Below are positions 1 to 52,800 of a stretch of 55,985 nucleotides of DNA, one piece after another (the stretch's first letter is position 1; each line of letters opens with the position of its first letter). Location of the stretch: IMG/VR virus record IMGVR_UViG_3300023243_000016, positions 1 through 55,985 of that record; one strand, 5' to 3'. The DNA is from a virus. The translations under genes were made by a program, and so were the position numbers. A model generated the notes under the pieces. The model saw nothing but the letters and a program-made list of their open reading frames with translations, made no database searches and was not told where the DNA came from.

Positions 1-1646
1 CTACGGCTGACACTACGTTTGTGTTTAGCAACCCCCCTACGACGGGTACTGCCCTCGGATTTACGTTGGGGCTAACTGGCCTGTATATTTCTGACGGCTA
101 TGACCTAGCTAATGCAGAGCCACCTGTTTATGGGAGGTTCAGTGTTGCTGCTCAAGAAACAATTCCACAAGACATATTCTTCAAACCTGATGGCTTAAAG
201 ATGTACGTTATTGGGTCCAGTGGAGACGATGTTAACGAGTATGATTTAAGCACCGCTTGGGATGTAACTTCAGCATCTTACTTACAGAACTTCAGTGTTA
301 CCGCCCAAGAATCAAGTCCAACTGGCATCTTCTTTAAGCCTGACGGCACAAAAATGTATGTTGTTGGGTCCAGTGGAGACGATGTTAACGAGTATGACCT
401 GAGTACCGCTTGGGATATAAGCACTGCGTCTTACTTGCAGAACTTCAGTGTTTCCGCCCAAGAAGCAAGTCCACAAGGCATCTTCTTTAAACCTGACGGC
501 ACAAAAATGTATGTTGTTGGGTCCAGTGGAGATGAGGTTAATGAGTATGACCTAAGCACTGCTTGGGATATCTCTTCATCTAGTTACTTACAGAACTTCA
601 GTGTTGCTGCTCAAGAAATAAATCCAACAGGCATCTTCTTCAAGCCTGACGGCCTAAAGATGTACATTATTGGGCAATCAGGAGACGATGTTAATGAGTA
701 TGATCTAAGCACAGCTTGGGATATAACTTCAGCCAGTTACTTGCAGAACTTCAGTGTTTCCGTTCAAGACACAGGTCCACAAGACATATTCTTCAAACCT
801 GATGGCACTAAGATGTACGTTATTGGGTCTACTGGAGATGCAGTCTATTCCTACACCCTAAGCACAGCTTGGGACCTAAGCACTGCCAGCTTTGACTATC
901 CTACTGAAGGGTACTTCAGTGTTGCTGCTCAAGAAGCAGCTCCACAAGGCATCTTCTTTAAACCTGACGGCACAAAGATGTATGTTATTGGGTACACTGG
1001 AGACGATGTTAACGAGTATGACCTGAGTACCGCTTGGGATGTTTCTACTGCATCTTACCTTCAGAACTTCAGTGTTGCTGCTCAAGAAACAGCTCCAACA
1101 GGCATCTTCTTTAAACCTGACGGCACAAAGATGTATGTTATTGGGTACACTGGAGACGATGTTAACGAGTATGACCTAAGCACCGCTTGGGATATCACTA
1201 CGGCCAGTTACTTACAGAACTTCAGTGTTTCCGCTGAAGAAATAACTCCACAAGGCATCTTCTTCAAACCTGATGGCACTAAGATGTACGTTATTGGGTC
1301 TACTGGAGATGATGTTAATGAGTATGATTTAAGTACAGCTTGGGATATCTCTTCATCTAGCTACTTGCAAAACTTTAGTGTTTCCGCTGAAGGCACTCCA
1401 ACCGGCATCTTTTTCAAGCCTGATGGCACAAAGATGTACGTTCTTGGGGCTGATGGAGATGCAATATGGCAATACTCCACAGGCTTTGCCGGAGATGCGA
1501 CCTTCACATACCCTGCCTCTGTCGAGTGGCCATCAGGTACACCACCTACCGCCCCTGCTGACGGTGAGACGGACCTACTAACGTTCCTCACGCAGGACGG
1601 TGGCACAACTTACTATGGACGATTGATAGGCGACAACTTCAGCTAA
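1..1646 (+). CDS. Receptor-binding fibre with beta-propeller-like repeats, 5' end missing
   Basis: The frame is open from base 3, so the true start is missing here. It lies in the copy at 54826 if the map is circular. Nine tandem repeats of about 46 residues follow one another, each with FFKPDG, KMYV, GDDVNEYDLSTAWD and SYLQNFS. The fifth repeat is a variant (GDAVYSY, ASFDYPTEGY). The repeat looks like the blades of a YVTN-type beta-propeller, so I infer a receptor-binding head. The last 45 residues (EWPSGTPPTAP ... TYYGRLIGDNFS) resemble the C-terminal ends of other marine phage fibres. A tail-fibre assembly gene follows after 13 bases. Substitutions between repeats cluster at the same few positions. 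Fibre role is likely; the propeller fold is inferred. Confidence 0.8.
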   Translation, partial: TADTTFVFSNPPTTGTALGFTLGLTGLYISDGYDLANAEPPVYGRFSVAAQETIPQDIFFKPDGLKMYVIGSSGDDVNEYDLSTAWDVTSASYLQNFSVTAQESSPTGIFFKPDGTKMYVVGSSGDDVNEYDLSTAWDISTASYLQNFSVSAQEASPQGIFFKPDGTKMYVVGSSGDEVNEYDLSTAWDISSSSYLQNFSVAAQEINPTGIFFKPDGLKMYIIGQSGDDVNEYDLSTAWDITSASYLQNFSVSVQDTGPQDIFFKPDGTKMYVIGSTGDAVYSYTLSTAWDLSTASFDYPTEGYFSVAAQEAAPQGIFFKPDGTKMYVIGYTGDDVNEYDLSTAWDVSTASYLQNFSVAAQETAPTGIFFKPDGTKMYVIGYTGDDVNEYDLSTAWDITTASYLQNFSVSAEEITPQGIFFKPDGTKMYVIGSTGDDVNEYDLSTAWDISSSSYLQNFSVSAEGTPTGIFFKPDGTKMYVLGADGDAIWQYSTGFAGDATFTYPASVEWPSGTPPTAPADGETDLLTFLTQDGGTTYYGRLIGDNFS

Positions 1647-3323: not shown

Positions 3324-6300
3324 ATGGCTAATGAAGATGTAAATACTACAGATACAGAAGAAGATGCTGTAGTAAAACCCTACACTATTAATGACGCTAT
3401 GGTAGAAAGGGCAATGGCTCCGAACCTACCTACAGGTTCTACGGTATCTCCTGTAGGTACTACTATTACACAAGATCAACTTGTAGGTACTACATTAGGT
3501 CAAGCTCCCGATGCACCTACTTCAATGGTTGCACAAGGGGGTGCTTCAACCGCAACAGCACCAACAGCAATTACTACCGCAATGGTAGATCCCCGCTTTG
3601 TCACAACTCCAGTAACCAGCGCATTAAACAGTGTTACTGCAGAAACAGGAAGTGTATCGTCGCAAGCTCAAGTACAGGCGGCACAAGGAACTATACCAGA
3701 TAGCAGTTTAGCTACGGCTATAGGTGTAGATGAAAAATACATACAGGAAGCAAAGGCTGGTACACGGGTTGTATCCCAACAAGAAATTGCTAATGCTGCG
3801 TTAGCTTTAAATATTCCTATTGCACAAGCTCAAAAGTTACTAACACCTGTAGCTACTGCAGAGGCAGCTAAATTTACAACGGGTACACCACAAGCTGAAG
3901 CGGTAACAGATTATACTGTAGGTACTGTACCTACGGTTGAAGGTGCGGTAGCACAAGAAGAGATTGCTACCGCACAAGGAGGCGACTTGCAAGCTGCTCA
4001 AGCTTCCGCTGAACAATCCTTAAAAGATATTCAAGCTAAGTTTGCTAGTGGTGAAGTTACTGCAGATCAACTGGCTACGGCTCAAACAAACTACAATAAC
4101 GTAACAACGCAAATTGCTAAACGTGCCGTAGGTGATAACGAACTTGCCGCAGTGGCTGGTATAGGTATGTCAGCAGAGCAGGCAGTTGCTTCGGTTAGCT
4201 CTTATCAATCTGCCTTAGAGTCTGCACAAAATAAAATATCTGATGGTGAAACCATTACACCTCAAGATTACTATAATCTACCTGCCGCTACTATTGCAAG
4301 TATGCAAGAAACTGCTGTTAAAAATGCAGCTACCGCATCTCTTACTCCTGAAGCAAGCGTAGCTACAAGTTCATATCAGTCTACTGTTTCTGCAACACAG
4401 GGTCATGTAGGCTCCCAAGAACTAATTGATGCAGAAGCCCAAGGTTTACAGATTGGTCAAGCAGTTGAAGCTGTTGCCGCAGTAGCTAACGAATTAAATA
4501 CTGCAGCTACCGCAGTAGCGCAACAAGGTACGTTGTCACAGTATCTTGCAGAGGCTTCTCAAGTTAACACTACAGCTAAGGCTACCGTACAAGGACAGAT
4601 GGCGCAGCTAATGGCGCAGTTTGAGAATGGTACACCTATATGGGCTTCCGGTGCTATGAGAGCCGCTAATGCAGCTATGGCATCCCGTGGTTTGGCTGGT
4701 TCTAGTATGGCTGGTGCTGCTATTGTGCAAGCTACTATGGAAGCTGCTCTGCCCATCGCATCCGCAGACGCTAAGTTTTTGTTTGACGCCAATATATCTA
4801 ATGCAAATTTTAAACAGCAAGTATCTCTTGCTAACGCTGCTGCGCAACAAAACATGGAGCTTGCTAATTTAAATAACAGGCAGCAAGTTGCTTTGTCTAA
4901 TAGCACGAATGCATTTACACTGCAGACACAAAACTTGTCTAACGAACAGTCTGTAATTCTAGCTAATGCCCAATTTAAATCTGCGGTACAACAGAAAAAC
5001 CTAGACGTAAAGACGCAGACTTCTCTAGTCAACGCAGCACGGTATGCAGAAGTAAATAATATTAACCTTAATAATACACAACAGGCATTGTTACAACGAT
5101 CTTCTGAAAACTTGCAGGTAGACATGAGTAACTTGTCTAACACACAGCAAACTTCTTTGGCTAACTTGCAGGTACAAGCTTCTATTGCGGGTCAAGAACT
5201 TACTAATGAACAACAGATGTCTGTCCTTTCTTCATCACAGACATTTGAAGCTGCGCAGTTCGACGCTACAGCAAAGCAACAAGCTTTTATGCAAGACGCA
5301 CAGTCACGTGCTGCCTTAGAAGGTAAGACACTAGATGTACGACAGCAAACTGCGTTGTTTAATGCTTCTCGTATAGCAGAAGTAAACGATATTAATCTAA
5401 ACAACGAACAACAAGTTCGACTGCAAAAGTCTGCAGAAAATTTACAAGTAGATACTACAAACGCATCTAACCGTCAACAAATAGCTCTTGCAAATGTTCA
5501 GCTTAGGGCTTCTTTGCAAGATAAAGTATTGAGTAATACACAGCAAGTAGCAGTTTTAAATGCAGAACGCTACGCAGAAGTTAATAACATTAACCTGAAC
5601 AATGAACAACAGGCGTTTGTACAGGACGCTACTATTAAGGCTGTTCAAGAGAATAAAACTTTAGATAATACGCAGCAAGCTGTGTTGTTTAATGCGGCTA
5701 GGCAAGCACAAGCTAAAGATATTATTTTAAATAACGAACAACAAGCATACATGCTACAGTCTACACAAAACTTTCAGCAAGACATAACTAACCTGTCTAA
5801 CCGTCAGCAAACATCGTTGGCAAACGCACAGCTAAATGCTAGTTTGCAAGGAAAGGTTCTTGACAACAACCAACAAACTGCTATACTTAATGCCGCACGT
5901 TACGCCGAAGTTAATAATATTAATCTAACGAATAAACAACAAGCCTTTGTACAAGAGTACTCAGCACGTACTGCATTTGAAGGTCAAGCTATATCTAATA
6001 GTCAACAAGCTTCTATCTTTAATGTATCCAGTATTCTTCAAGAAAGAAACATTGAATTAACTAACGAACAGCAAACAAGTTTGTTTAATGCGACTAGTAA
6101 AATGACTGTTGATATGACAGAACTATCTAATAGGCAACAATCTGCCGTAGCTAATCTGCAAGTGGAGGCTGCGTTACGGGGGCAAGAGTTACAGAACCAG
6201 CAACAAGTAGCTGTAATTAATGCGGAACGGTTTGCAGAAGCTTCTAACCTACAGTTCTCATCTGAGCAACAGATTATTTTATCTAATTCTCAAATGATGC

Positions 6301-7091
6301 AGACTATTGGTTTGGCTGAAATGTCCAGTGCGAATACTACGGCACTTCAGAACGCTGCGCAATTAGCTAACATGGATATAGCTAATTTAAATTCAAGGCA
6401 GCAAGCAGCCGTACAAAATGCTCAATCCTTTTTAAATATGGACATGGCTAATTTGTCTAACCGCCAACAAACAAACATGTTTAAATCTCAAGCTATGCAG
6501 CAAGCGTTACTTTCAGATCAAGCGGCAGATAATGCTGGTAAACAGTTTAACGCAAGTAGTGAAAATCAAGTCAATCAATTTATGACTAGTCTATCGTCAC
6601 AAGTATCCCAGTTTAATACAGCGCAACAAAACGCTACTAAACAGTTTAATGCAGGCGAAGTTAACGCTATGAGTAAATTTAATTCACAGATAACTGCTCA
6701 ACGTGATCAATTCAATGCAGCTAACCAACTTGTGATAGCACAAAACAATGCTAACTGGCGCAGACAAGTGGCAACAGAAGACACAGCAGCTGTTAATAGG
6801 TCCAATGAAATTAATGCAGCTAATACTTTAGCTATGTCTAATACAGCGTACGATAATTTATGGAACTACTACTCCGACACTATGGAATTTGTGTGGACTA
6901 GTGCGGAAAGTGAACGAGAGCGTACTGTTGACATTGCTATAGCAAACTTAAACAATGATGCTAGTGCACTTGCAGTTAGTAACCAGCAAGACTATCAATC
7001 ATCCTTGTCTTTTGGTAACTTAGTGGGTACACTGTTTACATCGGATTTAAGTGGTAGCTTTGCCGGGTCTATAATAGACAATATTTTTTAA
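3324..7091 (+). CDS. Giant helical internal virion protein with 22-residue repeats
   Basis: 1255 residues. Residues 1-430 are rich in Ala, Thr, Gln and Val and look flexible. From about residue 515 to 1060 the chain is built from some 25 repeats of 22 residues with the core N-x-Q-Q-x-x-L-x-N-A (for example SNRQQTSLANAQ, NNEQQAFVQDA). A 22-residue period equals two 11-residue units and suggests a very long amphipathic or right-handed coiled helix. The last 190 residues are non-repetitive. Placed after a strong promoter and before two other large proteins, it is probably an ejected core protein. No enzyme motif seen. Confidence 0.8.
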   Translation: MANEDVNTTDTEEDAVVKPYTINDAMVERAMAPNLPTGSTVSPVGTTITQDQLVGTTLGQAPDAPTSMVAQGGASTATAPTAITTAMVDPRFVTTPVTSALNSVTAETGSVSSQAQVQAAQGTIPDSSLATAIGVDEKYIQEAKAGTRVVSQQEIANAALALNIPIAQAQKLLTPVATAEAAKFTTGTPQAEAVTDYTVGTVPTVEGAVAQEEIATAQGGDLQAAQASAEQSLKDIQAKFASGEVTADQLATAQTNYNNVTTQIAKRAVGDNELAAVAGIGMSAEQAVASVSSYQSALESAQNKISDGETITPQDYYNLPAATIASMQETAVKNAATASLTPEASVATSSYQSTVSATQGHVGSQELIDAEAQGLQIGQAVEAVAAVANELNTAATAVAQQGTLSQYLAEASQVNTTAKATVQGQMAQLMAQFENGTPIWASGAMRAANAAMASRGLAGSSMAGAAIVQATMEAALPIASADAKFLFDANISNANFKQQVSLANAAAQQNMELANLNNRQQVALSNSTNAFTLQTQNLSNEQSVILANAQFKSAVQQKNLDVKTQTSLVNAARYAEVNNINLNNTQQALLQRSSENLQVDMSNLSNTQQTSLANLQVQASIAGQELTNEQQMSVLSSSQTFEAAQFDATAKQQAFMQDAQSRAALEGKTLDVRQQTALFNASRIAEVNDINLNNEQQVRLQKSAENLQVDTTNASNRQQIALANVQLRASLQDKVLSNTQQVAVLNAERYAEVNNINLNNEQQAFVQDATIKAVQENKTLDNTQQAVLFNAARQAQAKDIILNNEQQAYMLQSTQNFQQDITNLSNRQQTSLANAQLNASLQGKVLDNNQQTAILNAARYAEVNNINLTNKQQAFVQEYSARTAFEGQAISNSQQASIFNVSSILQERNIELTNEQQTSLFNATSKMTVDMTELSNRQQSAVANLQVEAALRGQELQNQQQVAVINAERFAEASNLQFSSEQQIILSNSQMMQTIGLAEMSSANTTALQNAAQLANMDIANLNSRQQAAVQNAQSFLNMDMANLSNRQQTNMFKSQAMQQALLSDQAADNAGKQFNASSENQVNQFMTSLSSQVSQFNTAQQNATKQFNAGEVNAMSKFNSQITAQRDQFNAANQLVIAQNNANWRRQVATEDTAAVNRSNEINAANTLAMSNTAYDNLWNYYSDTMEFVWTSAESERERTVDIAIANLNNDASALAVSNQQDYQSSLSFGNLVGTLFTSDLSGSFAGSIIDNIF

Positions 7092-7110: not shown

Positions 7111-7323
7111 ATGTTTAACGTATTTGCAAAAGCATACAAGGATATAAAGTTGCCTGAGAAGAAAGAGATTGTTTCTTCTAGCAAAACTAAAGGTTTGTTG
7201 TCACGAAATAAGGAAGTAACACCCGCTGATAGTTCATCCAGTGAACCTATGGATCGTATAGCTAACTACGTGGCAAGCATACGAGAAGATAGAATGAGGA
7301 TTAAAGATGATAGAGACACCTGA
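7111..7323 (+). CDS. Small hypothetical protein, 70 aa
   Basis: Lys/Ser-rich protein starting MFNVFAKAYKDIKLP, ending IREDRMRIKDDRDT. A GAGGAAAG stands about 10 bases before the ATG. Its end overlaps the next gene by 17 bases, so the two are probably co-translated. No family recognised. Confidence 0.6.
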   Translation: MFNVFAKAYKDIKLPEKKEIVSSSKTKGLLSRNKEVTPADSSSSEPMDRIANYVASIREDRMRIKDDRDT

Positions 7324-7822
7324 AGTATCCCTTAACCGACCTATTCCCGGCATGGGTATGACTGCAGAAGTTGGTAGCAGGCCGTGGCAACAGCCTCCGC
7401 AGTACACAACTATAGAGGAAGCTCTTGACTTTTATATCCCAAGGCTTACAGAAGAAAACTTTAACGATCAATTGCTAGACGTTATGGAGATGGGTATTCC
7501 TTTAACTACTATTGCTAGTAGCATACAACTTGCAGGCGTCATGCAAGGTAAGCACACGGTTGATGTAGGTGTTCTTATTATGCCAGTACTCATGGAGATG
7601 ATGGCTTATATTGGTGACGATGCGGATATTAGTTACGTAATAGGGGACGAAGCAGAAACTAATTCCGACAAAATCTCCAGTAGTAAAATTGCATTGGCTA
7701 TGAAGTCAATGAAAAAACGTTTACCAGAGGCGCTAGAAAATGCTGATGAACAAGAAGTTGTAGAAGTACCAGAAGAAGAAGAAGTATCTATGCCTTCTGG
7801 TCTTATGTCGAGGAGAATATAG
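7307..7822 (+). CDS. Conserved marine phage virion protein, 171 aa
   Basis: Conserved-looking core: GMTAEVGSRPWQQPPQY, then EEALDFYIPRL, then MEMGIPLTTIASSIQLAGVM. I recall this combination from unrelated marine phages (cyanophages, pelagiphages), where it is an uncharacterised virion protein. The tail is very acidic (VVEVPEEEEVSMPSG). Starts within the previous gene and abuts the next. Confidence 0.65.
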   Translation: MIETPEVSLNRPIPGMGMTAEVGSRPWQQPPQYTTIEEALDFYIPRLTEENFNDQLLDVMEMGIPLTTIASSIQLAGVMQGKHTVDVGVLIMPVLMEMMAYIGDDADISYVIGDEAETNSDKISSSKIALAMKSMKKRLPEALENADEQEVVEVPEEEEVSMPSGLMSRRI

Positions 7823-8908
7823 ATGGCGTTTAGCTTTGGAGGTTTTGCCGCAGGTGCAGCGGGTGCAGTTACCGAACGTATAAGAATAAACGAAGACAGA
7901 ACGCAAAAACGTTTAGAGGAATCACGCCGTGATGCCCGTGCTCTTAGGTTACGTAAGGGAGCCGAACGTGATGCAGAAAAGAAAGCTACGGAAGAAGCCA
8001 TAGGTTCCTTGACGTTTATGGGATACGCACCGGAAACTGCTGCGCACATTGCTAGTCAGGGCAAAACCGCTGTATCTTTAGCAGGTGATGCAGGTACACG
8101 TGCTATGCAGCGTGGCCTAGACATTAATACTATTTACAGTTTGCCTGAAGTTAATTCTAACAGTGCCGTAAATGAGACTATAGATGGTGCCGAACCCAAA
8201 GCAAGTACTGTGTTTGGTGGTTTTAACCGTGAAGAATATCAGAGGTTGTATCAAGAACCTGATGAGATTAGCAATAGCTTTGGTGCTAGGCTTGCAGTCT
8301 TATCTCAAAAACAATTAGCAACTAATGACCCGAATAAAATTGCAGGTTATGAGCGGCAAAAGGTGACGCTACTAAAAGACTTAAACGCCATGAAAGAAGC
8401 TGAAAGTATTAAAGGTGAGGATGAAAAAGGTCCAACATTTACACTAGGTACTATACAATCTAATGTTAACTCAGCAGTCAAACAACAGCTAGTAAACTTT
8501 GATTTAGGTATGGACATGGAAGGTAATATTAGGGGCAAGATTGAAGGTAAAGAAGCTCAGGTTGAGGTGGCTAGATTACGTGCCGCAGATTATCTTAATC
8601 AAACATTTACATCTTTAGAAGACCCTGTTATGACAGATGCTGTCTCTGCTTTACAGGCACAGGCAGCAACTAATTTAAATAGCTATAAAAATGCTATTTT
8701 ATCACAAGTAAAAGCAGGGCAGCTACCACTACCGAGCAATTATAAAACAGAGGTCAGTTTAGAAGCTATGATTAACAACAAAAGTAAATATAATATAGGG
8801 GACGTTATTGCTATACCGAGAGGTGCATATGTATACACACAAATTGATAATCCGGGCCTTAAAAACGACATTACAGAAGACGAAGAAGATAGGATTCCGT
8901 TTTACTAA
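7823..8908 (+). CDS. Probable internal virion protein, 361 aa
   Basis: N-terminal Gly/Ala segment (FGGFAAGAAGAV) followed by a highly charged helix rich in Arg (about residues 18-60), then a mixed globular part. Starts one base after the previous stop and shares its last base with the next ATG. No recognised domain; position among ejection-type proteins suggests a virion role. Confidence 0.6.
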   Translation: MAFSFGGFAAGAAGAVTERIRINEDRTQKRLEESRRDARALRLRKGAERDAEKKATEEAIGSLTFMGYAPETAAHIASQGKTAVSLAGDAGTRAMQRGLDINTIYSLPEVNSNSAVNETIDGAEPKASTVFGGFNREEYQRLYQEPDEISNSFGARLAVLSQKQLATNDPNKIAGYERQKVTLLKDLNAMKEAESIKGEDEKGPTFTLGTIQSNVNSAVKQQLVNFDLGMDMEGNIRGKIEGKEAQVEVARLRAADYLNQTFTSLEDPVMTDAVSALQAQAATNLNSYKNAILSQVKAGQLPLPSNYKTEVSLEAMINNKSKYNIGDVIAIPRGAYVYTQIDNPGLKNDITEDEEDRIPFY

Positions 8909-11900
8909 TGGCTGAAGCACTTTCACTTGATGACTATACAAAGTTTAGAGATTCAAACTATGCAAAGTCTAGAGATAAAGAAGATGACGAAGAAGATACA
9001 GTAGTCACTCCTTCTCTCCCAACGAAACCCTCCCGGCAAAGGGATGTGGGTGCCGTGTCATTGAGTGTTTATACAGCCCAACGAGATGGTACTAAAGCTA
9101 GTGATGTTTTAGTTGTAGAAGATGCGGAAGAACCTGACTGGCTTACTCCTGTCGCTTATGACTCAAGTGAGGTAGAGGAACAACCGGATTATGAATACGT
9201 AGAAGACAGACGGTATGAAAAAGTAGCTGAAGAAGTCAAGGATTTTGAGGATTATGTTTCTGGATTAAAAGAAGAAGAACGCATTGCCTTTGATGCTGAC
9301 ATGCGCAAAGACATGCTGGCAGGCGCTGATATGCGTAAGGCTGGTTTGGGGGAGTATCTTATATCGCAACTGCCTACTGGTGCATTGATTTGGTTAGGTA
9401 ATTCTATGCAAAAGGTTGGCGCTATGTCTACGGACGTCCTTGAAAGTACTTTTTCAGGGTTAAACGAAGCGTACCCAGAAGCCTTTGAGGTTTTAGATAG
9501 TGCTATAACAGGTAATAGGTACGGAAATACTGAAAGCCCCAAGAAACTAGCAGACTTTGTGGCAGAGGGCCTTGGCTCTGCGTTTGAATTTACAGAAACT
9601 ATTCCCGCACTAGGTAGTGTTCAACGAGTTATAAACTCAGCGGTAAATGCCGGAGTTCGTAACCCTACCAAAGTACTCGCAGGTATGGATGCTGACTTAG
9701 AGAGAGCTAACCGATACAATGTTGGTGGCGCACGTATAGCTACAAGTAGAGCTAGGGAAGAGTCCCGTAAGGCAGCAGATACTGTCGTCCAACAGAACCG
9801 TGACATTGCGGATGAACTTATTCTTGCGTTTGAGGATAAGACGGGTAAGACTATATCAAAAAAAGATGGTGATAACCTAACGTTAGACTTAGATGCAGCC
9901 CGTGAAGCAGGTAGAGAAACTGCTATAGAAGTTACAGAACGTGATGGTGCTTTGTTTGATCTCGCAATAGGCCCAGACAATATAACTTCTCCCATATTAA
10001 ACCCTGATAAATTTAATGGCATTGTTGCTATAGCTGTAGAACTTAAAAAGAAAAACCCAGAAGCGTTCAACAATAAAAAAACTATTATTGATAACCTATT
10101 TGAACTTACTGTAAACAAAGACCTTGATGGACAAGGACTGGTAGATGGCTTGAATAAGTACGGCCTATCCTTTGAAGACTATGTGTTGACAGTAGTAGGG
10201 TCAGGTTCTGACGCTGGTAAAGTATTGAATAAACTTTCTCAGATTGCTCGTACTAAACCGACATCCGTAGCAGATGATGCGGCGCAAAAGTTATTGCTGG
10301 ATCAACAAGGTACTATACGTAAGGGTGTCATGCGCATTGAGAACATTCGCCGTGGATTACTTGTATCACAGGTAGCTACGGCTGCTCGTAACCTTACATC
10401 TGGTGGCATACGTGCTCCTCTTGAGGGCTTAGCTAACGTAATGGACAGTGCTCTGTATGAGTTTAGTCAACCTATTGGTAAGGGTACGGGTGGATTCTTA
10501 GGTGCAGGTAAGAAACTAGCATCACCAGAGAACTGGAAGGACAGCTTTCGGCATATGAAATATATGTTTGATCGTCCTGATGTAGCTAAAGCGTACACTG
10601 ACTTAGTGCTAGAACAACCTCAACTAGAGTCACAGTTCAACAGGATGTTTAATAACCTAAACGAAATACAGGCACTAACAGGTCGTGGTGAAGGTGGTGC
10701 TGCAGATAAAGTACTCAGTGGTCTTGAAGACGTAACAGATTTTCTTAACGTACCTAACCGTTGGCAGGAATACCTAATACGTAGAGGTACATTCTTCGGT
10801 GAGCTTGAACGCTTAACTAGGCGTGAGTATAAGATTGATTTAATTGATGCGTTGCAAGATGGCAAGCTTAAAGACTTACTTAATGATGCAAGCTCTGTAA
10901 AACCGGAGGGTGCTAGATCATTTATTAACATCGTAGATGACTCCGTAACTAAAGCCTTAGACATTACGTACGCAAAACAACCTGACATACCTGTGTTCCG
11001 CAGCACGTCACAGTTTATAACTCGAAATGGCTTAACAGTTATCATGCCCTTCCCACGCTTTATGTTTAACAGCATGGAGCTTATGGGTCAGTACGCAGCA
11101 GGCGCATCCATACCCTTGACACGCAAGGTTACAGAGCTTGTAACGTTAGGTAAGGTAGGCAGTGGCCCATTAACAGCCAAAGACAGACAGCGTATATCAC
11201 GTAACCTTACAGGCATGGCTGCAGTAGGTGCAGCATACATGTATCGTACCAGTGATGACGCACCCGCTGAGTTCAATCAAGTTAGTGTGTCTGAAGAATC
11301 ACAAGCGGATACTATGCCACTATATCCTGTACCGCAGTACATGTACCTTGGTGAAGCAACTAAGCGTATGCAAGATGGTACGTTTAACGATTGGTTTGAT
11401 GCAAAAGAATTTGTAGAAACTTTTGCTGGTACGAACCTACGTACTGGTACAAGTAACGCTCTCTTAGAAGAGGTGTCTGCCTTTGCTGATGCTACGGACC
11501 TTACTAAAGGGGAATCTATGGGGCGTCTAGCTGGACGTACACTAGGTAACTACTTAGGTACATGGGCTGTCCCTCTTGCGCAGATAATTGAAGCGCAGCG
11601 TGTAGCTGGTGTGCGTGGTTTAACATACGCAGATGCAGCTAAAGACCCTACACTAGACTTCATGGGTACATTTAAGCGTGAGCTTATTCGTCCTATTGCA
11701 CAGCGTGGTATCCTTACTACACCAGAGGAAGAGGCTGCACTACCAGAGCGACAGTTCTTGTTTGCAGAAGGTGGTACAAAGCAACGAGGCTCTCCTATTG
11801 CTAAGTTTGGCTTGGGCCTTAACCTAAGCGATAAGGATTCAGAAGCTGGTGAGTACCTAACTAACTTAGGTTTCAAAGACTATAAGCTCGGTAGTACATC

Positions 11901-12300
11901 TAAGGTGCCAAGCATCAAACGTTTTGAGAATAAGATGCTAGGTGATTTGGTTCCTACTGTAGTAGAGGCCATGAAAGGCTTAGAGGATTATTGGCGGCGT
12001 GACTACGCTAAGCAACCCGACTCGTTTAAGGCAAAAGTAAAAGAAGAAAAGTACGTTAATACTAATATAAAACCAGAGATACAAAAACAGTTTAGTGCTA
12101 TCAAGTCTGCCATACGTGAGGGTAGCATCTCACAAGGGGACGCATACACACGGGCGATAGTACAGTACAGAAACGTAAGCCCTGAGTTACGAAAGATTGC
12201 AACCCTAGAGTTTTACAAAATGTATCCCGATAGAGAAATAAATGTTTTAAACACTGAGCATATAAACACACTCATAGCTATAGCAGAGGCTAGGAAATAA
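8908..12300 (+). CDS. Giant internal virion or ejection protein, 1130 aa
   Basis: Acidic, disordered N-terminus (residues 1-110, with DYTKFRDSNYAKSRD and a similar SVYTAQRDG), then long helical stretches and a few weakly hydrophobic segments (LISQLPTGALIWLG near 150; LTGMAAVGAAYMY near 770). I see no lysozyme or transglycosylase motif. Last gene of the plus-strand block; its stop is directly followed by a terminator. Size and place match large internal proteins of podoviruses that are injected with the DNA. Confidence 0.7.
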   Translation: MAEALSLDDYTKFRDSNYAKSRDKEDDEEDTVVTPSLPTKPSRQRDVGAVSLSVYTAQRDGTKASDVLVVEDAEEPDWLTPVAYDSSEVEEQPDYEYVEDRRYEKVAEEVKDFEDYVSGLKEEERIAFDADMRKDMLAGADMRKAGLGEYLISQLPTGALIWLGNSMQKVGAMSTDVLESTFSGLNEAYPEAFEVLDSAITGNRYGNTESPKKLADFVAEGLGSAFEFTETIPALGSVQRVINSAVNAGVRNPTKVLAGMDADLERANRYNVGGARIATSRAREESRKAADTVVQQNRDIADELILAFEDKTGKTISKKDGDNLTLDLDAAREAGRETAIEVTERDGALFDLAIGPDNITSPILNPDKFNGIVAIAVELKKKNPEAFNNKKTIIDNLFELTVNKDLDGQGLVDGLNKYGLSFEDYVLTVVGSGSDAGKVLNKLSQIARTKPTSVADDAAQKLLLDQQGTIRKGVMRIENIRRGLLVSQVATAARNLTSGGIRAPLEGLANVMDSALYEFSQPIGKGTGGFLGAGKKLASPENWKDSFRHMKYMFDRPDVAKAYTDLVLEQPQLESQFNRMFNNLNEIQALTGRGEGGAADKVLSGLEDVTDFLNVPNRWQEYLIRRGTFFGELERLTRREYKIDLIDALQDGKLKDLLNDASSVKPEGARSFINIVDDSVTKALDITYAKQPDIPVFRSTSQFITRNGLTVIMPFPRFMFNSMELMGQYAAGASIPLTRKVTELVTLGKVGSGPLTAKDRQRISRNLTGMAAVGAAYMYRTSDDAPAEFNQVSVSEESQADTMPLYPVPQYMYLGEATKRMQDGTFNDWFDAKEFVETFAGTNLRTGTSNALLEEVSAFADATDLTKGESMGRLAGRTLGNYLGTWAVPLAQIIEAQRVAGVRGLTYADAAKDPTLDFMGTFKRELIRPIAQRGILTTPEEEAALPERQFLFAEGGTKQRGSPIAKFGLGLNLSDKDSEAGEYLTNLGFKDYKLGSTSKVPSIKRFENKMLGDLVPTVVEAMKGLEDYWRRDYAKQPDSFKAKVKEEKYVNTNIKPEIQKQFSAIKSAIREGSISQGDAYTRAIVQYRNVSPELRKIATLEFYKMYPDREINVLNTEHINTLIAIAEARK

Positions 12301-24667: not shown

Positions 24668-25429
24668 TTAGTCTCCTAGTGTTGAAAGGTTTGCCATGTC
24701 GGATGGCTGTCGGTATTTTAGGTCATCGTCTAGTCGTAGTACCTTGATGTTGGCAACGTGGCTACGTAATTCCTTAGCAAATTGCAGTGTCTTGGGTAAA
24801 GCATCGGGGTCTAATGCAATTATAGCTGATGAGAACTGCGACAAGTACTGTTTGTGTCCATTAGATAGGGACGTACCTAACAATGCTACCCCGACATATA
24901 AATCACTACCTACAACGGCAGCACTTATGCAGTCCTCAACAACTACAGCAGTTTTACCACGTCCGAAAGCGTATGGCAATACACTCTTACCATATCTTTT
25001 CCACTTAGGTATACGATTACCCAGTGATCTGCCCGTGGCATCTACTGTAACTCCACCGTGTACAACAGGGAACACCACACGATGTTCCTTCACGTCATAC
25101 AATAGCCCTAAGTCTTGCGCATCTAACTGCCATTGGTCACAGAAGGATGCAATCTTTTTGTAGTCTCTTACAAACCATTCAGGTCTGCTGAATGTTACAG
25201 CATGTGTCTCTTCTGCAACATGTCCTAATGACTTACGTATGTCATCAGCAGTCAGTGATGTACGTGTACCACCACCAGCAGTGCAGCTTGCTTTATAACA
25301 ATTCCATACGATGGAACCCATGTTATTTGTAACAGTAAAAGTGTTCTTAGTATTACATACAGGACAGGACATGCGTCTTGTCTCACCATTAACAAGTGAT
25401 AGATCATTTATAATACTAAGTATATTCAT
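24668..25429 (-). CDS. DNA primase (zinc finger and TOPRIM)
   Basis: 253 residues. Zinc-binding C22-x2-C25 and C44-x4-C49, then a TOPRIM domain with E165 (VVVEDCISA) and D207-x-D209 (ALDPDA). Corresponds to the primase half of T7 gp4, here a free protein upstream of the helicase. Makes RNA primers for lagging-strand synthesis. Shares one base with the recombinase stop. Confidence 0.9.
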   Translation of the reverse strand: MNILSIINDLSLVNGETRRMSCPVCNTKNTFTVTNNMGSIVWNCYKASCTAGGGTRTSLTADDIRKSLGHVAEETHAVTFSRPEWFVRDYKKIASFCDQWQLDAQDLGLLYDVKEHRVVFPVVHGGVTVDATGRSLGNRIPKWKRYGKSVLPYAFGRGKTAVVVEDCISAAVVGSDLYVGVALLGTSLSNGHKQYLSQFSSAIIALDPDALPKTLQFAKELRSHVANIKVLRLDDDLKYRQPSDMANLSTLGD

Positions 25430-26550
25430 TACATATTACTTTCTTTGTTACTCACTACGCTCGATTGTACACTGACATTTCTTTGTGTCAAGGCATTATT
25501 TGCAGAATCATATGTATGCTTCATGTATGGTTTCACAGAAGACACATGATTGTGTCCTGTCACCGACATAAGTTGCCCAATTGGCACACCTTTATCAATC
25601 ATCTGTGTCACTCCTGTCCTACGTAAGTCCATCAATCGTAGTTCCTCCGACAATGCAGCCAACCTCATTACCCTACGGCCTACCTTTGATAAGCGTTCCA
25701 TTGCGTATGGTTGATACTTACCCATAACAGGGCGTGGGTGAGGTGCTACGTAGTCTTGAAACCCAAAGTCAGTGCGTTGATTGCTAAGCATCTCACACAA
25801 CCCATCCGATATAGGTAAAGATACATCCGCCCTACGTTTACTCTGCTCAAGGCTTAGCTTCTGAGAATGTAAGTCAATGTTATCCCATGTCAGGTTACGC
25901 ATGTCACCTAATCGTTGACACCATTCGTATGCCATCTGTACTATCAAGCCTACGTTCCTGTATTCATAATCGCTGTATGCTTTATCAAGAAACCGGACAA
26001 CGTCATCATGCTGCCACACTACCTTACGTTGCGGCAATGCCTTACGTTTGATGTTGGCCCAAGGGTTTAGGGTAGCATGTTCCATCTGTATGGCGTAGTT
26101 GTACACCCTACTGGCACATGTAGCTGCATGGTTAGCGAAGCTGATGCCCCGCTTAACCCAATCTTCATATGCCTGCTTGGCAACCTTAGACGTTACACTG
26201 TCATACTTCTTACCACCCATTGTCTGGTGGAGAATGGTAAGGAAGTATCTGTAATCCACTTTAGTTGTAGTACGTAACATAATGAAATCATTAGATTGAT
26301 AGTAGTAGTTTATCAAGTCAGTCACCTTGCTGCTAGGCTTTACTTGTATAACAAGAGACTGTTCATACCGCCACGCATCTATAGCAACATTGTGTTCCTT
26401 CACAATCTTACGCACTAGCTTGAGGTCAGTGCCGTACTCTGCACGTTGCACTACACCCTCATCTACAAGAGGCTGCGGCGGATTGAAGCGGTACGAGATC
26501 ACCCCAGAGGGTGACACTCGCTCTTGTACATAGCGTGGTAGGTTAGGCAT
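25429..26550 (-). CDS. int: Tyrosine recombinase / integrase
   Basis: 373 residues. Arm- and core-binding N-terminus (VTDLINYYYQSNDF) followed by a catalytic domain with R213 (CQRLGDMRNL), K238 (QSKRRAD), R310 (MDLRRTG), H333 (GHNH) and nucleophile Y342 (KPYMKHT). The residue three before R310, normally His, is Met307. The gene is embedded between primase and a nuclease with overlaps on both sides, so it belongs to the replication operon. I find no repressor or clear attachment site. It may integrate, resolve genome multimers or be vestigial. Confidence 0.88.
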   Translation of the reverse strand: MPNLPRYVQERVSPSGVISYRFNPPQPLVDEGVVQRAEYGTDLKLVRKIVKEHNVAIDAWRYEQSLVIQVKPSSKVTDLINYYYQSNDFIMLRTTTKVDYRYFLTILHQTMGGKKYDSVTSKVAKQAYEDWVKRGISFANHAATCASRVYNYAIQMEHATLNPWANIKRKALPQRKVVWQHDDVVRFLDKAYSDYEYRNVGLIVQMAYEWCQRLGDMRNLTWDNIDLHSQKLSLEQSKRRADVSLPISDGLCEMLSNQRTDFGFQDYVAPHPRPVMGKYQPYAMERLSKVGRRVMRLAALSEELRLMDLRRTGVTQMIDKGVPIGQLMSVTGHNHVSSVKPYMKHTYDSANNALTQRNVSVQSSVVSNKESNM

Positions 26551-40518: not shown

Positions 40519-40660
40519 TTATATTGATACATTGATAGCGCAACAGCATCGTACTATGGAACAGTCTGACAATGACAAGATTATGTATAGGTCACAAGGT
40601 GCTATATACACATTGCGTAGGCTAAAGCTACTTAGAGATGAAGTATTAAAAAATGGCTGA
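40421..40660 (+). CDS. Small helical protein overlapping the portal end
   Basis: 79 residues starting inside the portal gene (98-base overlap, other frame). KLKAMVNNPQQWDQFSSYIDTLI ... YRSQGAIYTLRRLKLLRDEVL has a strong coding character. I recall the same short protein (NNP..W..F..Y, YRSQGAI-x-LRRLK) after portal genes of other marine phages. Ends 8 bases inside the next gene. Role unknown, perhaps head-assembly related. Confidence 0.75.
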   Translation: MNKDLVEMHKDKEHLSKLKAMVNNPQQWDQFSSYIDTLIAQQHRTMEQSDNDKIMYRSQGAIYTLRRLKLLRDEVLKNG

Positions 40661-43600
40661 AGAAAAAGTAAGTCAAGGTTTAAAATTTAACAGAGGTGGA
40701 ACCCCAATGCGGAAACAAATGAAACTTTTTAACGATGGTGGTCTTAAAGAAGAGGGTGGCATGGTAGACAAAGAGTCTGGTAATAAAGTTCCTGTAGGCG
40801 GTACACGTAAAGGTGTTCGTGATGACATACCCGCTATGGTCAGCGAAGGTGAGTTTGTATTTCCCGAAGATGTAGTTAGGTATATTGGTTTAGATAAACT
40901 TATGCAGATGCGACAGAAAGCTAAGGCAGGACTTCAAAATATGGATGACATGGGGCAAATGGGCAATAGTGAAGAAGCTACTGTTCCAGATGACGCACCA
41001 TTAAGTCTCCCTGTTGGCATGGCGGAAGGTGGGGTAGTACAAAATGCGGCACCTCGTTCTTTAGTTGGGGGTGTTGCTCAAACTGCTGCGCCTCGTCAAC
41101 TAACTACTACAACCCCTACTGCAAAAAGATCAGCCGTTAGTTTTAAAGAATTTATGGGTAAAGGGTACGTAGAGTTTAAAGAATATCGTAACTCAGCAGG
41201 CACTTCTTTGTTAATACCTTTTGTGGGCGGCTCTCCCGCATATCCTATTCCATCAGGCTATACAGAATATACACCGACCTCTGACGAAAGTGGTTCTACA
41301 GGCGGAGCATCGCAGGGTACTACCGCTATAGCTACGGAAGTAGGTAACGCTATAAACGCCGCAACGGGCAACGACAAAGACGATAACAATTTTACTGTGC
41401 CAAAGTCTCAATTTCAAAAATCTGGTGGCTGGGATATGGATACGACAGGCTCCGACGGTAAAGATTTACAGCTTTGGATTGACGAAGCGACTAAATTTTT
41501 TGATGGTACGTCTTCTGTAGTCTCTGGCGTTGCTTCTGTTTTTGGATTAGGTGTTCCTGTATACTTACTAAATAAAAGTCAACGGAACCGTGTGATAGAA
41601 GACTTAGACGAAAAAATTGCACAGGCTAAAAAAACTTCTATGCCGGGACAGGTTGCAGCGTTACAAAAAATTAAAGATTCACTAAATGAAGAATCAAAAA
41701 AATCTATTTTAAGTAAAGTAGTAGATGGCATTACCGGAACTATAGGCGACCTGTTTGGTGCAGACGAGGAAGAAAAGAAAAAAGCAGTAACAGAGGTAGT
41801 TAAAATTGAAAACGAAACTTTTAATTTTGGCGATGTAGAAGGTCAGTATAGTAAATCTCCTTCCTTATCTACAGACCTACCGGGTGAGCTTAGTGAACCC
41901 GAATTTACAAGTACAGCTAACATGCCAGCAGCCACTGCAAAAGACGAAGAAAAATTTAAAGATGAATTTGATGCATTTACACGTAAGTACAGTACAGCAC
42001 TAGCCGATGTAGAAAAGAACCTAATACCAAGAGATGTACTAGAGTACATTTTAAAGGATGCTTCGGTGAGGCTGGGTAAAGATGCGGCTCGTGAAATACA
42101 ATCTAATAGTATGACTACACTTTACAACACAGATTACGCAAACAATACTGTTGCCAATTTATTTGGCCCTAACTTTGGTCGGCCTAAGTTATCTACAGAA
42201 GAACAAATAGCTAAACGTGCCAGTATAACACCTTCCGGTGGCGTACCTTTTTCTGCGTCAACCGCTGATCCTCGTTTATTAGAGGCGGCAGGTTATCCAG
42301 TACAAACGAAAGAAGAACAAACACCTTCCTTTACGCCCAGCACACCAAGCTACGATATGTTTGGTAAACCGTACGCTAATGCTACTGTACGTAAGTATGC
42401 AGACGATGCTTTAGCAGATAGCTCAGCTTTTGCAAATACTGTTACCGAAGTAAATAATCTAGTTAAAGGGTATGATTTTAAAACGGACCTTGGGCCACTT
42501 CCCGGTGTTGATCCTAACTTTACACTAGAGTCAACGCAGCAGTTTACGCCTAAAATGACTACTGAAGTACCTAAATTTGATGTACCATCATCCCCACGTA
42601 ATTATACAGATACCGCATACAACTATGGTACACAGATGGATACTACTCTATTTCCTGCAACCGTACAAGACCAAACACAACAAGCTTTTGCGGGAAGCAC
42701 GTACGATACCGTGCCTGCGTATTCGACTAAGCAACCACCCGCACCTGTTGCTGGGGCACCTGTCGCACCTACCTTTCCTGTAGACCCACGTCTTTCTATC
42801 TCTAGTACAGGTCTTCCTGCTGCTACAGCACAAACATTTAACCAAACCTTTGCAACAAATCGTGCAGCAGGTGCTAAAGAGTTTAGCTATGACAGAGATG
42901 GCGATGGTAAAACAGAAAGATACACTACTGATCTTGCTAAACCAGCTGAAGCGGCTAAAGCAGGTTCTAATAGTCTATACCAAACTGCAGCAAATTTGTT
43001 TACCCCCGGTGATGATAAAGAATATGTAGGTGGTGAGATTGTTACTACCGGAAGTAGTAAATCTAAAACAAAGACTACTCCCGCTGCAAGTAAAAACGTT
43101 GCCACTGCAAATGTTATTAATAAGACAAGTGCTCCTATAGCTAAAGCCAATCAGGATAGATTTGGAGATGCTGGTGCAGGTAATGTGTGGGCGGTACAAC
43201 CGGGAACTAATGCAGTCACTAAAGTAAAAGCTGCAAAAGTTGTAGGCTCACGTAGTAAAGAAGCTGTACAGGCAGACATCAATAAAGAAATAGCAAATGG
43301 CTGGACGCCAAGAGCTAACGAACTTGTAAAAGAACGTGCCGCTGCTCAACCTGCACCTACACCAGTTGCAAGCAGCAGTAATAAGGACAGCGGAAACGAT
43401 GGTGGCAACGAAGATAAAATTGTATGTACCGAAATGTATCGCCAAACCCAACTGGTAGATTGGCAACGGTCTATAAAGATTTGGGACATATATCAAAAAA
43501 GGCACTTGACACCCCTACATCAAATAGGTTATCATTGGTTATTCAAACCTTACGTTAAAGGTATGAAGAATAGTTCTATACTAACTAAGTTAGGTGCAGC

Positions 43601-43745
43601 TTTAGCCAAACATAGAACACAACACCTTCGTCATGTACTTACTAAAGGTAAAGCTAAAGATGATATTTTAGGTAATATCTGGTGCAAGATTGTACACCCA
43701 TTAGTATACGTTGCGGGTGTCATTAAAGAAAAGATAGGTAAATAG
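40653..43745 (+). CDS. Large virion structural protein, 1030 aa
   Basis: N-terminal block RGGTPMRKQMKLFNDGG, then DDIPAMVSEGEFVFPEDVVRYIG and LMQMRQKAKAGLQNMDDMGQMGN, which recur in marine phage virion proteins. A long Pro/Thr/Ala-rich, low-order middle contains one calcium-loop-like DRDGDGKTERYT (about residue 750). The last 110 residues (CTEMYRQTQLVDWQRSIKIW ... HLTPLHQIGYHWLFKPYVKGM) form a separate conserved domain with aromatic and basic residues. Lies between portal and scaffold. Confidence 0.75.
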   Translation: MAEEKVSQGLKFNRGGTPMRKQMKLFNDGGLKEEGGMVDKESGNKVPVGGTRKGVRDDIPAMVSEGEFVFPEDVVRYIGLDKLMQMRQKAKAGLQNMDDMGQMGNSEEATVPDDAPLSLPVGMAEGGVVQNAAPRSLVGGVAQTAAPRQLTTTTPTAKRSAVSFKEFMGKGYVEFKEYRNSAGTSLLIPFVGGSPAYPIPSGYTEYTPTSDESGSTGGASQGTTAIATEVGNAINAATGNDKDDNNFTVPKSQFQKSGGWDMDTTGSDGKDLQLWIDEATKFFDGTSSVVSGVASVFGLGVPVYLLNKSQRNRVIEDLDEKIAQAKKTSMPGQVAALQKIKDSLNEESKKSILSKVVDGITGTIGDLFGADEEEKKKAVTEVVKIENETFNFGDVEGQYSKSPSLSTDLPGELSEPEFTSTANMPAATAKDEEKFKDEFDAFTRKYSTALADVEKNLIPRDVLEYILKDASVRLGKDAAREIQSNSMTTLYNTDYANNTVANLFGPNFGRPKLSTEEQIAKRASITPSGGVPFSASTADPRLLEAAGYPVQTKEEQTPSFTPSTPSYDMFGKPYANATVRKYADDALADSSAFANTVTEVNNLVKGYDFKTDLGPLPGVDPNFTLESTQQFTPKMTTEVPKFDVPSSPRNYTDTAYNYGTQMDTTLFPATVQDQTQQAFAGSTYDTVPAYSTKQPPAPVAGAPVAPTFPVDPRLSISSTGLPAATAQTFNQTFATNRAAGAKEFSYDRDGDGKTERYTTDLAKPAEAAKAGSNSLYQTAANLFTPGDDKEYVGGEIVTTGSSKSKTKTTPAASKNVATANVINKTSAPIAKANQDRFGDAGAGNVWAVQPGTNAVTKVKAAKVVGSRSKEAVQADINKEIANGWTPRANELVKERAAAQPAPTPVASSSNKDSGNDGGNEDKIVCTEMYRQTQLVDWQRSIKIWDIYQKRHLTPLHQIGYHWLFKPYVKGMKNSSILTKLGAALAKHRTQHLRHVLTKGKAKDDILGNIWCKIVHPLVYVAGVIKEKIGK

Positions 43746-49861: not shown

Positions 49862-52800
49862 GTGGCAGGATATACAAGACAATCTTCAGCAGATATTATT
49901 GCAACAGCTGTTGTACGTGCTAACCCGCTGAACGTAGAGTACAATGCATTGAGAGATGCATTTAATTCTAGTAGTGGACACAAGCATGATGGTACAGCAG
50001 CAGAAGGTGCCTATGTACCACTAATTGCTGACGCAGACGCACTTAATAAAGTTGCTATTAACACAGCTAACAATCGTGTTGGTGTATTTGTTGAAGTGTC
50101 TAGTGCTGCCGTAGAACAAATACGTATTCAAGATGGTGCCATTGTACCAGTTACTAACAATGATATTGATCTTGGCACAAGCTCCCTAGAGTTTAAAGAT
50201 TTGTATATTGATGGTACTGCACACATAGATACGCTTGATGTAGATGCAAATGCTGGTATTATAGGAAACTTGACGGTTAGTGGTAACACTATTCTTGGTG
50301 ATGCCGCAAATGATACTGTTACGATTACTGCTGACGTTGCTTCCCCCCTAATACCTTCCGCTGATGATACACATGACTTAGGTGCTGTAGGTTCTGAGTG
50401 GCGTAACCTATACGTAGATGGTACTGCTAACATAGACGCCCTTGTAGCTGACACTGCAGACATTAATGGTGGTACTGTTGATGGTGCTGTCATTGGTGGA
50501 GCTAGTGCTGCTGCTGGTACATTCACTTCTTTGAATGCTTCGGGCACAGCTACACTAGCTACAGTAGATATTAATGCGGGTAACATTGACGGTACTGTTA
50601 TTGGTGCTGGTTCTGCAGCTGCTATTACAGGTACTACAATTACAGGTACATCGCTTGTAGGTGCAGTAACAGGCGATGTTACAGGTAATGCAGACACTGC
50701 TACTGCACTAGAAACAGCAAGAACTATTGGCGGTGTATCATTCAATGGTACAGCTAATATTAACTTGCCGGGTGTTAATACTGCAGGTAATCAAGACACA
50801 TCCGGTACTGCAGCAGATGCAACGGTACTTGAAACTGCTCGAACAATCGGTGGTGTTTCCTTTGATGGTAGTGCCAATATTAATCTTCCCGGTGTTAATG
50901 CTGCGGGTAATCAGAGTACTTCAGGTAATGCCGCTAGTGCAACTATACTAGAGACAGCTAGAACTATTGCTGGAAACTCTTTTAACGGTAGTGCTAATAT
51001 CACTATCGCTGCTACTGACTTATCTGATACAGACCAAAGTCTAGCCACAGGTGATAATGTTACGTTTGCTTCTGTCACAGGTAATCTAACAGGTAACGTA
51101 ACATCTACAGGTGCTAACTCTTTTGGTTCAGTCACAGTTTCAGGTGCAGCAACCTTAAATGGCAACACCATAATTGGTAATGCTGCTACCGATACTGTTA
51201 CAGTTACTGCAGATGTCGCATCTAATCTTATACCTAGTGCAGATAGCTCGTATAGTCTTGGTGATAGCTCTAACTATTGGTCGCATGGATACATTGATGC
51301 TATTACTACTACAGGAAATGTAATAGTCGGTGGTGACTTAACTGTCAATGGTACAACCACTACAGTAGCTACAACTAACATGACTGTATCGGATGCCCTA
51401 ATTGAATTGGGTACAGGTACTACAGGTACTCCCGCTAATGATGCAGGTATTGTCATTGAACGTGGCGATGCAGCTAATGCCTTCATGGGCTATGACGAAA
51501 GTGCTGATAAGTTTACAGTAGGTACGGGTACATTCACAGGTGCCTCCACAGGCAACCTGAGCATCACTACAGGCACACTTGTAGCTAATGTCGAGGGTAA
51601 CGTCACAGGTAATGTAACAGGCTCCTCAGGATCAACAACAGGTAACGCAGCTACAGCTACAGCATTAGCAACAGCCCGTACTATTGGTGGCGTTAGCTTT
51701 GATGGTACAGCTAATATAAACCTTCCCGGTGTTAATGCATCAGGTACACAGGATACATCTGGCAATGCAGACACCGCTACAGCACTAGCGACTGCACGTA
51801 CTATCGCTGGTCAATCGTTTGACGGTACAGGTAATATCTCTATCGCTCCTACCGATCTTACTGGTGTAAACTCTACTGCCACTGAATTAAATATCATGGA
51901 CGGTGATACGTCAGCTTCCGCTACTACTCTTGCAGATGCGGACAGAGTTGTAGTTAATGATGCTGGCACTATGAAACAGGTAGCACTGACAGACTTTGAG
52001 ACATACTTTGAGGGTGCATTAGATACACTCAGTAATGTAACAACTGTGGGTGCTCTTAATAGCGGTAGTATTACAAGTGGCTTTGGCGATATTAATAATG
52101 GCTCAAGTGCTATCACTACAACAGGTACAGTAACATACGGTAACTTGTCCGATGGTACTATTACTATTACAGGCTTCGTAGATGAAGATAACATGGCATC
52201 TAATAGTGCTACACTTATACCTACACAACAATCTGTAGAGGCTCGTATTCAGGCTGTAAGTGCTACAGCTAATAACGTAACTGGTCTTAATGCTACAGGT
52301 ACAGAGCTAAACACTGTAGCTGACTTTTCTGCTGTAAGTGTAGATACAAGCACAGCAATAGCTAGTAACGATGCCCTATTAGTATTTGACAACGGTAACG
52401 AAATAGGTTATCGTGACGTAGACTTACTTGATACGTACTTCTCAGCTACAACTAAAACACTTACCAATAAAACAATAACAAGTCCTATCCTAACAGGTAT
52501 GCACCTTAACGACTCAGGGTTTACTGTTGAGGGTTCCAGTGCAGACGGTAATGAAACTACTGTAGCATTTACTAACCCTACCGCTGCTCGTACTATTACA
52601 TTTACGGATGCAAGTGGTACTGTTGCTTTTACATCCGATATAAACGTAACCAACGTAACTGCTGCTGGGGCATTAATGGATAGTGAGGTTACTAACCTTG
52701 CCCAAGTAAAAGCATTCAGCTCTGCTGACTACGCTACAGCTGCACAGGGTACACTTGCAACAAATGCATTACCTAAAGCTGGTGGTGTGTTAACGGGTGC

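Follow-up and report, generated by a model that had tools for sequence, protein, structure and literature searches.

What role a virus could find for a protein built around a long rod of 22-residue repeats is the question raised by the locus described here. The gene is encoded in a 55,985-base virus record (IMG/VR IMGVR_UViG_3300023243_000016), which was analyzed over its whole length and is referred to as the window. It occupies positions 3324–7091 of the plus strand as one open frame of 1255 amino acids, and has homologs in phage records and in many IMG/VR contigs. New here are a register lock, by which the length of the rod is fixed modulo 11, and a ladder of 110-residue length steps; the mechanism itself we infer. 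Of the roles considered for the rod protein, we favor that of a pilot (ejection) protein in short-tailed phages of the HMO-2011 type, with the chances evenly balanced that this is right.

Architecture and length of the rod

The N-terminal region of the protein, residues 1–414 (positions 3324–4565; all features of the gene are on the plus strand), was delimited by its A/T/V/Q-rich composition and is variable in length. It is followed by a conserved domain, residues 415–486 (4566–4781), identified by alignments and by a profile, which ends in ..ALPIA..DA and contains the anchor residue P477. The repeats start just C-terminal to this domain. Autocorrelation and unit alignment delineate 26 units of 22 residues, that is 52 hendecads, spanning residues 494–1065 (4803–6518) and organized in a 110-residue super-repeat of five units. 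An 11-residue pattern of the type [QKR][FY]N... extends past the 22-mers as single hendecads, from residue 1066 to about residue 1175 (6519–6848), with six Phe residues at an exact period of 11 from residue 1075. The alignments define a further conserved region at residues 1176–1215 (6849–6968), which carries LWxxxxD and ENExxR motifs.

The top lags in the identity autocorrelation of residues 481–1080 are 110 (0.42), 66, 44, 22, 88 and 132, whereas 500 shuffles gave at most 0.15, whatever the lag. The motif N-x-[QEKR]-Q occurs 25 times in the protein, and among the 26 in-register units Gln is found in 92% at position 5 and likewise in 92% at position 6. The 22-mer is a pair of hendecads, the first with the consensus L-[SND]-N-x-Q-Q-x-A-L-x-N and the second with A-Q-x-x-A-x-L-x-x-x-N. 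A preliminary description of this DNA had put the count at about 25 repeats of 22 residues across some 545 residues and had proposed repeat detection as a check; the 22-residue period proved real, its lag values standing far above those of the shuffles, and the count rose to 26 units over 572 residues. The two-hendecad unit, the 110-residue super-repeat, the continuation of the hendecads to about residue 1175 and the start of the repeats after the conserved domain go beyond that description. Third-codon identity between units is only 0.32–0.38 and no TRF array of DNA-level tandem repeats was found at the rod gene, so the units are old. The missing array also rules out a recent DNA tandem array as the origin of the repeats.

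The length of the rod was measured as the distance from P477 to the point where the C-terminal domain profile begins. It equals 1 modulo 11 in 71/71 sequences of a first set, with lengths from 12 to 562, and again in 65/65 further sequences, which were fetched later with other members as queries and measured with the old profiles. Five of 76 sequences had been dropped from the first set for lack of one domain, and 27 of 92 candidates from the second (11 without the N domain, two without the C domain, nine identical to the first set and five duplicates). A second anchor, the distance from P477 to the W of WR[RK], equals 8 modulo 11 in 62/62 and 48/49 sequences, the sole exception being L216 (L numbers denote homolog loci). 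The N-terminal parts of the same proteins scatter in length modulo 11 and follow no rule. The lengths 12 (L079), 34 (L026) and 144 (L017) belong to genes that end at a contig edge, and L025 measures 144 by the C-domain anchor and belongs to the 342 family by the other anchor; the modulo-11 rule still holds in all of these. Modulo 22 the rod length is constant in 58/71 and 60/65 sequences, with the remainder offset by 11. The absence of any indel other than a multiple of 11 among 136 sequences with widely diverged units points to a constraint, because unit duplication alone gives multiples of the unit but does not bar other indels.

Rod lengths form ladders with 110-residue steps in two divergent clades, 122-232-342-452-562 and 298-408-518. 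Sister pairs one five-unit block apart are the window protein and L015 or L018, L020 and L028, L064 and L060, and L185 and L064. Members of the divergent clade with rods of 408 or 518 residues have 110 and 55 as their leading autocorrelation lags, so that the working unit there is the hendecad, used in fives. The homolog tree, midpoint rooted and built from two short concatenated domains with its support unchecked, has 62 tips and 15 Fitch changes.

Relatives were identified by tblastn in 27 of 50,697 phage records, none of them named for a function: apart from a single 'huntingtin' entry and a record in which that place bears no feature, all are annotated as 'hypothetical protein'. The 'huntingtin' homolog is MW202701.1 (L004), a name evidently derived from the Q-rich composition. 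The hosts of the phages with rod homologs are Roseobacter, Pelagibacter, SAR116, Rhizobium, Sinorhizobium, Vibrio, Aeromonas and Pseudoalteromonas. IMG/VR contributed 79 homolog loci and later 5, 60 and 24 more; in four further contigs from other metagenomes (L011–L014) the window rod protein recurs at 100% best-segment identity. From the N- to the C-terminus, the members share a variable region, the conserved domain with ALPIA at its end, the repeat rod and a conserved C-terminal region. The profile of the conserved domain is present in 71/76 distinct first-set sequences, and the complete members that have it range from 460 to 1531 amino acids.

Some members carry a Peptidase_S74 domain at the C-terminus, which is absent from the window protein; Pfam finds it in two of 36 aligned members and again in L032, and it was recognized by eye in L031. 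The S74-bearing L029, L031 and L032 form a small clade with a rod length of 232. Another C-terminal addition, with the motif ..CWVAREVYG....RW..FR.WM...AP.WLY..Y.KHG.., is shared by L003 (HMO-2011), L033, L034, L035, L037, L038 and L049 and is not recognized by Pfam. A link to the PHROG 'DNA ejection protein' families 4287 and 6121 was rejected, since the matches run through S74 only and are gone once S74 is cut off. No prophage relatives of the rod protein were found in the genome contigs searched. The open-licence PubMed Central literature, in the portions of text available to us, which is the extent to which papers are cited throughout, contains no description of the rod protein, its repeats or its length ladder.

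Helical phase and a proposed role in DNA ejection

The rods of 130 homologs contain a single proline in 44,110 residues and the N-terminal parts of the same homologs 3,433 in 49,376 residues (6.95%), counted in 130/136 sequences with rods shorter than 50 left out. Rod composition across the homologs is 16.8% Q and 13.6% N. Compared with two relatives at 85% amino acid identity, the rod gives dN/dS values of 0.065 and 0.039, which are rough as dS is above 1, and by these estimates the rod is under strong purifying selection. Shuffles, selection and the out-of-sample register together rule out chance or a low-complexity artefact. A helix that keeps an 11-residue, three-turn phase would explain the register lock, the near absence of proline and the strong selection together, and the sequence data argue for rods that are helices held in this phase. 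The rise of an α-helix is 0.15 nm per residue; residues 494–1175 would be ~100 nm long if the helix is unbroken. We consider it fairly probable, with considerable reservation, that the 22-mer part is an unbroken or nearly unbroken helix.

The rod gene is the first of a conserved block of uncharacterized late genes, structural in appearance, that lies downstream of tail and lysis genes and ends ahead of reverse-strand nucleotide genes. The block comprises the repeat protein, in some cases a protein of about 70 amino acids, and proteins of about 171, 360–930 and 800–1776 amino acids. In the window the companions, all on the plus strand, are a 70-amino acid ORF (7111–7323; in 33/87 loci), an acidic 171-amino acid protein with a net charge of −18 by composition (7307–7822; 78/87 loci), a 361-amino acid protein with the N-terminus MAFSFGGFAAGAAGAV (7823–8908; 20/87 loci by sequence, its position being kept in annotated relatives) and a 1130-amino acid protein, the last of the block (8908–12300; 41/87 loci by sequence). 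These counts include many loci that end ahead of the genes in question, and the companions diverge fast.

Small, middle and very large proteins following the tail genes is also the layout of podovirus ejection proteins (T7 gp14/15/16, P22 gp7/20/16, epsilon15 gp13-17 and PhiM1 EP3/OEP/TEP), and the window block has this layout. Extreme sequence divergence is usual among these proteins (PMC8954989). The T7 gp14-like first proteins, with 181–240 amino acids, are the size-constant member (PMC8954989), whereas the rod protein, which its conserved first place would make their counterpart, is with 460 to 1531 amino acids the most variable member. No sequence or fold match between podovirus ejection proteins and the rod was detected, and no SLT domain was found in the window genome.

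Among working analogues, pilot protein H of phiX174 comes closest, followed by the tape-measure protein with 11-residue units. Residues 151–271 of H form a decameric α-helical tube of hendecads and heptads, 170 Å long and cell-wall-spanning, in which N, Q and R make up most of the lumen lining (PMC7354561). The same residues in the fetched record include no Pro, 19.0% Q and 6.6% N. The rod shares with this tube (PDB accession numbers 4jpp and 4jpn) a hendecad build, predicted as α-helical, an essentially proline-free composition and an abundance of Gln and Asn. The preliminary description knew of no characterized phage ejection protein built this way; H, a helical, amide-lined and wall-spanning tube, is such a protein (PMC7354561). 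H is carried in the virion and forms the DNA tube across the wall (PMC7354561), and the same is proposed for the rod. H differs in that its tube is 17 nm long, comprises 121 residues with three hendecads followed by heptads, and belongs to a single-stranded DNA phage; the available portions of its description report no unit ladder (PMC7354561), whereas the window rod is far longer and quantized in length.

In the mechanism that we propose, several copies of the rod protein would be carried in the virion and, on infection, would leave ahead of the DNA. The long helices would align side by side in the 11-residue, three-turn phase to form a tube or bundle rich in Asn and Gln, which would conduct the double-stranded genome across the cell envelope; by analogy with H such a channel across the envelope is plausible. 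Neighboring rods would touch one another via the 11-residue pattern, so that gaining or losing any number of residues other than a multiple of 11 would shift part of the rod out of phase; in the model, this is why such indels are not seen. The 110-residue step would correspond to a longer repeat in the assembled rods, for instance an axial stagger of ~16.5 nm. The rod ends, that is the conserved domain and the C-terminal region, would bind the companions, the portal or tail, or the membrane.

Evidence against ejection and alternative roles

Several results weigh against this proposal. The preliminary description called the rod protein an internal virion protein, a status that is based on gene order only: the gene is the first of a conserved block after the tail and lysis genes, and Pfam, PHROG and PDB sequence searches gave no relative that names the protein, apart from the S74 matches in a few members. 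The accessible open-licence PubMed Central text yielded no virion data, whether proteomics or imaging, for the rod protein. Comparison with epsilon15 gp11-gp17 by hhalign gave no match (the best pair, g1130-gp17, had 2.9% probability), and the positive control, tube A-gp11, also failed, so that this negative carries little weight. Hydropathy in a 19-residue window reaches a maximum of 1.23 in the window protein, with no segment above 1.4, whereas the gp14-like member of podovirus ejection sets has predicted membrane segments; the C-termini of some relatives of the rod protein are hydrophobic and rich in Gly. Nor would a straight helix of 100 nm fit into a capsid whose size we take to be about 60 nm.

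The helix itself meets opposition from the same quarter as supports an α-solenoid, compact or extended, in which each 22 residues would form a short helix and a tight turn and the whole a folded scaffold in the head or at the portal. An AlphaFold job with 36 sequences (mean pLDDT 63, pTM 0.28) returned helices of ~16 residues, interrupted by brief gaps in most 22-mers, at pLDDT 70–84 around window residues 606–686, and long helices at 461–555, 694–731, 782–841 and 1046–1239; a second job, on L042, gave the same broken-helix pattern at a low pLDDT of 50. Among 277 distinct 22-mers, position 2 is S, T, N or D in 99% and Gly occupies position 20 in 22% and any other position in at most 1.4%, both of which resemble helix ends. 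The motif used for picking units itself limits positions 1–3, 5 and 6; the unfiltered window units still have S, T, N or D at position 2 in 96%. The hydrophobic period of 3.67 is also weak in the 22-mer part (4.0–6.5, vs 22–33 at 2.75, 2.2 and 7.33). Against the solenoid, no Pro occurs at any of the 22 positions in the 277 units, although Pro is favored in the first turn of helices, and loop indels are missing, every length change being a multiple of 11. Odd and even unit numbers both occur, which disfavors an array of antiparallel hairpins, and the 298/408/518 clade has a strong 55-residue lag, an odd number of hendecads. We regard the solenoid as unlikely. The preliminary description had left the choice between a continuous helix and a large solenoid; the register lock and the near absence of proline favor the unbroken helix, whereas the low-confidence AlphaFold models and the cap-like residues favor breaks every 22 residues. 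On an 11/3 helical wheel the hydrophobic positions a and i lie on one side and g on the opposite side, charge falls at d, h and k and neutral amides at b and f. The arrangement is suggestive of a two-faced helix, but the segregation of these classes does not exceed that of permuted positions, 392–1791 of 2000 permutations reaching it. A one-sided amphipathic coiled coil was rejected, as neither the hydrophobic periodicity nor the wheel permutation supports it. Fold searches with these weak models gave no match in the PDB at E ≤ 0.001 and, in BFVD, four matches at E ≤ 0.001 that say little, two unnamed and two uninformatively named; their 22–37% identity suggests that they are homologs.

An external fiber or whisker, that is an oligomeric α-helical fiber outside the particle that aids adsorption as fibritin or a helical tail fiber does, would accommodate a ~100 nm rod more easily than the inside of the particle, and tail-fiber genes lie upstream of the rod gene. 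Some members also end in Peptidase_S74, an intramolecular chaperone domain usual in trimeric fibers, but S74 is missing from most members and the PHROG matches of those that bear it disappear without it. Moreover, conservation lies in the C-terminal half and variation at the N-terminus, opposite to the usual receptor-binding fiber, and the rod gene opens the last block of large proteins, with lysis or hypothetical genes between fibers and rod in most annotated relatives; a fiber seems improbable to us. A true tape measure, in which the rod sets the length of a tubular structure (a tail extension or an ejection tube) and the 171- and 70-amino acid neighbors act as coating chaperones, is very unlikely. 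Siphophage tape measures (TP901-1; the set of Belcaid et al.) resemble the rod in their period of 11, in their whole-unit length changes and in part in their Phe/Trp markers, which in the rod are confined to the C-terminal hendecads with the six Phe from residue 1075; helical phase matters in tape-measure deletion mutants (PMC3271669, PMC5099701). TP901-1 still formed plaques after deletions of certain sizes within a repeat (3, 7 and 10 residues) but not after others, a result for which the authors emphasize helical periodicity (PMC5099701). Marker runs of at least 6 occur in 44/136 members of the rod family and runs of at least 7, the published pattern, in 2/136, with runs of at least 5 in 0/331 control ORFs. 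However, the tape measures belong to long-tailed phages, whereas the rod belongs to a short-tailed group (PMC9038755, PMC6918029) and has a 110-residue super-unit, other gene neighbors and a 22-mer part without an aromatic marker. No major tail-tube gene was found among the window ORFs searched, the rod protein has no profile match to tape-measure families, and tape-measure matches in BFVD appear only at E 0.037 or worse, ranked behind homologs.

Genome context and meaning for HMO-2011-type phages

The phage represented by the window is, by its gene content, an HMO-2011-type podovirus, because its portal protein has 79–82% identity to the portals of HMO-2011, CRP-1 and CRP-345 and because it also encodes a terminase, a major head protein, an SU10-type adaptor, DNA polymerase A, a DnaB-type helicase, a class II ribonucleotide reductase and a tyrosine integrase. 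The integrase gene (25429–26550, minus strand) suggests that the phage may be temperate. A 1030-amino acid protein encoded between the portal and major head protein genes (40653–43745, plus strand) has no Pfam match and a single weak PHROG tape-measure match (2e-7) at residues 49–251. A GTG-start ORF of 541 amino acids (21–1646, plus strand) contains ~9 near-identical blades of 45–50 residues (FKPDGTKMYVIG..); it is β-propeller-like, with SMP-30/lactonase Pfam matches and a tail-fiber-like C-terminus, is followed by a tail assembly chaperone gene, and has one relative annotated as a WD40 repeat protein. A tail fiber of 1548 amino acids with YadA head repeats is encoded at 49862–54508 (plus strand).

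HMO-2011-type phages are among the most abundant marine virus groups (PMC9038755). The papers on them treat capsid, portal, packaging and lysis genes broadly, and the portions available contain no description of how these phages deliver their DNA (PMC9038755, PMC6918029). The rod could act as a molecular ruler, in which hendecad helices, bundled to conduct DNA, would have their length set in 110-residue (~16.5 nm) steps, up to ~100 nm in the window phage; we put this forward as a rather doubtful possibility. Such a ruler would unite two known designs, the tube of phiX174 H with its amide lining and the tape-measure protein with its logic of units. Were the phase model true, deletions of multiples of 11 residues, above all of 110, would be tolerated and others would not, and if the ruler is true, the length of the ejected tube would differ between strains in steps of ~16.5 nm. 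The ejection proteins of short-tailed phages, the phiX174 tube and the tape measures would then represent one kind of helical engineering.

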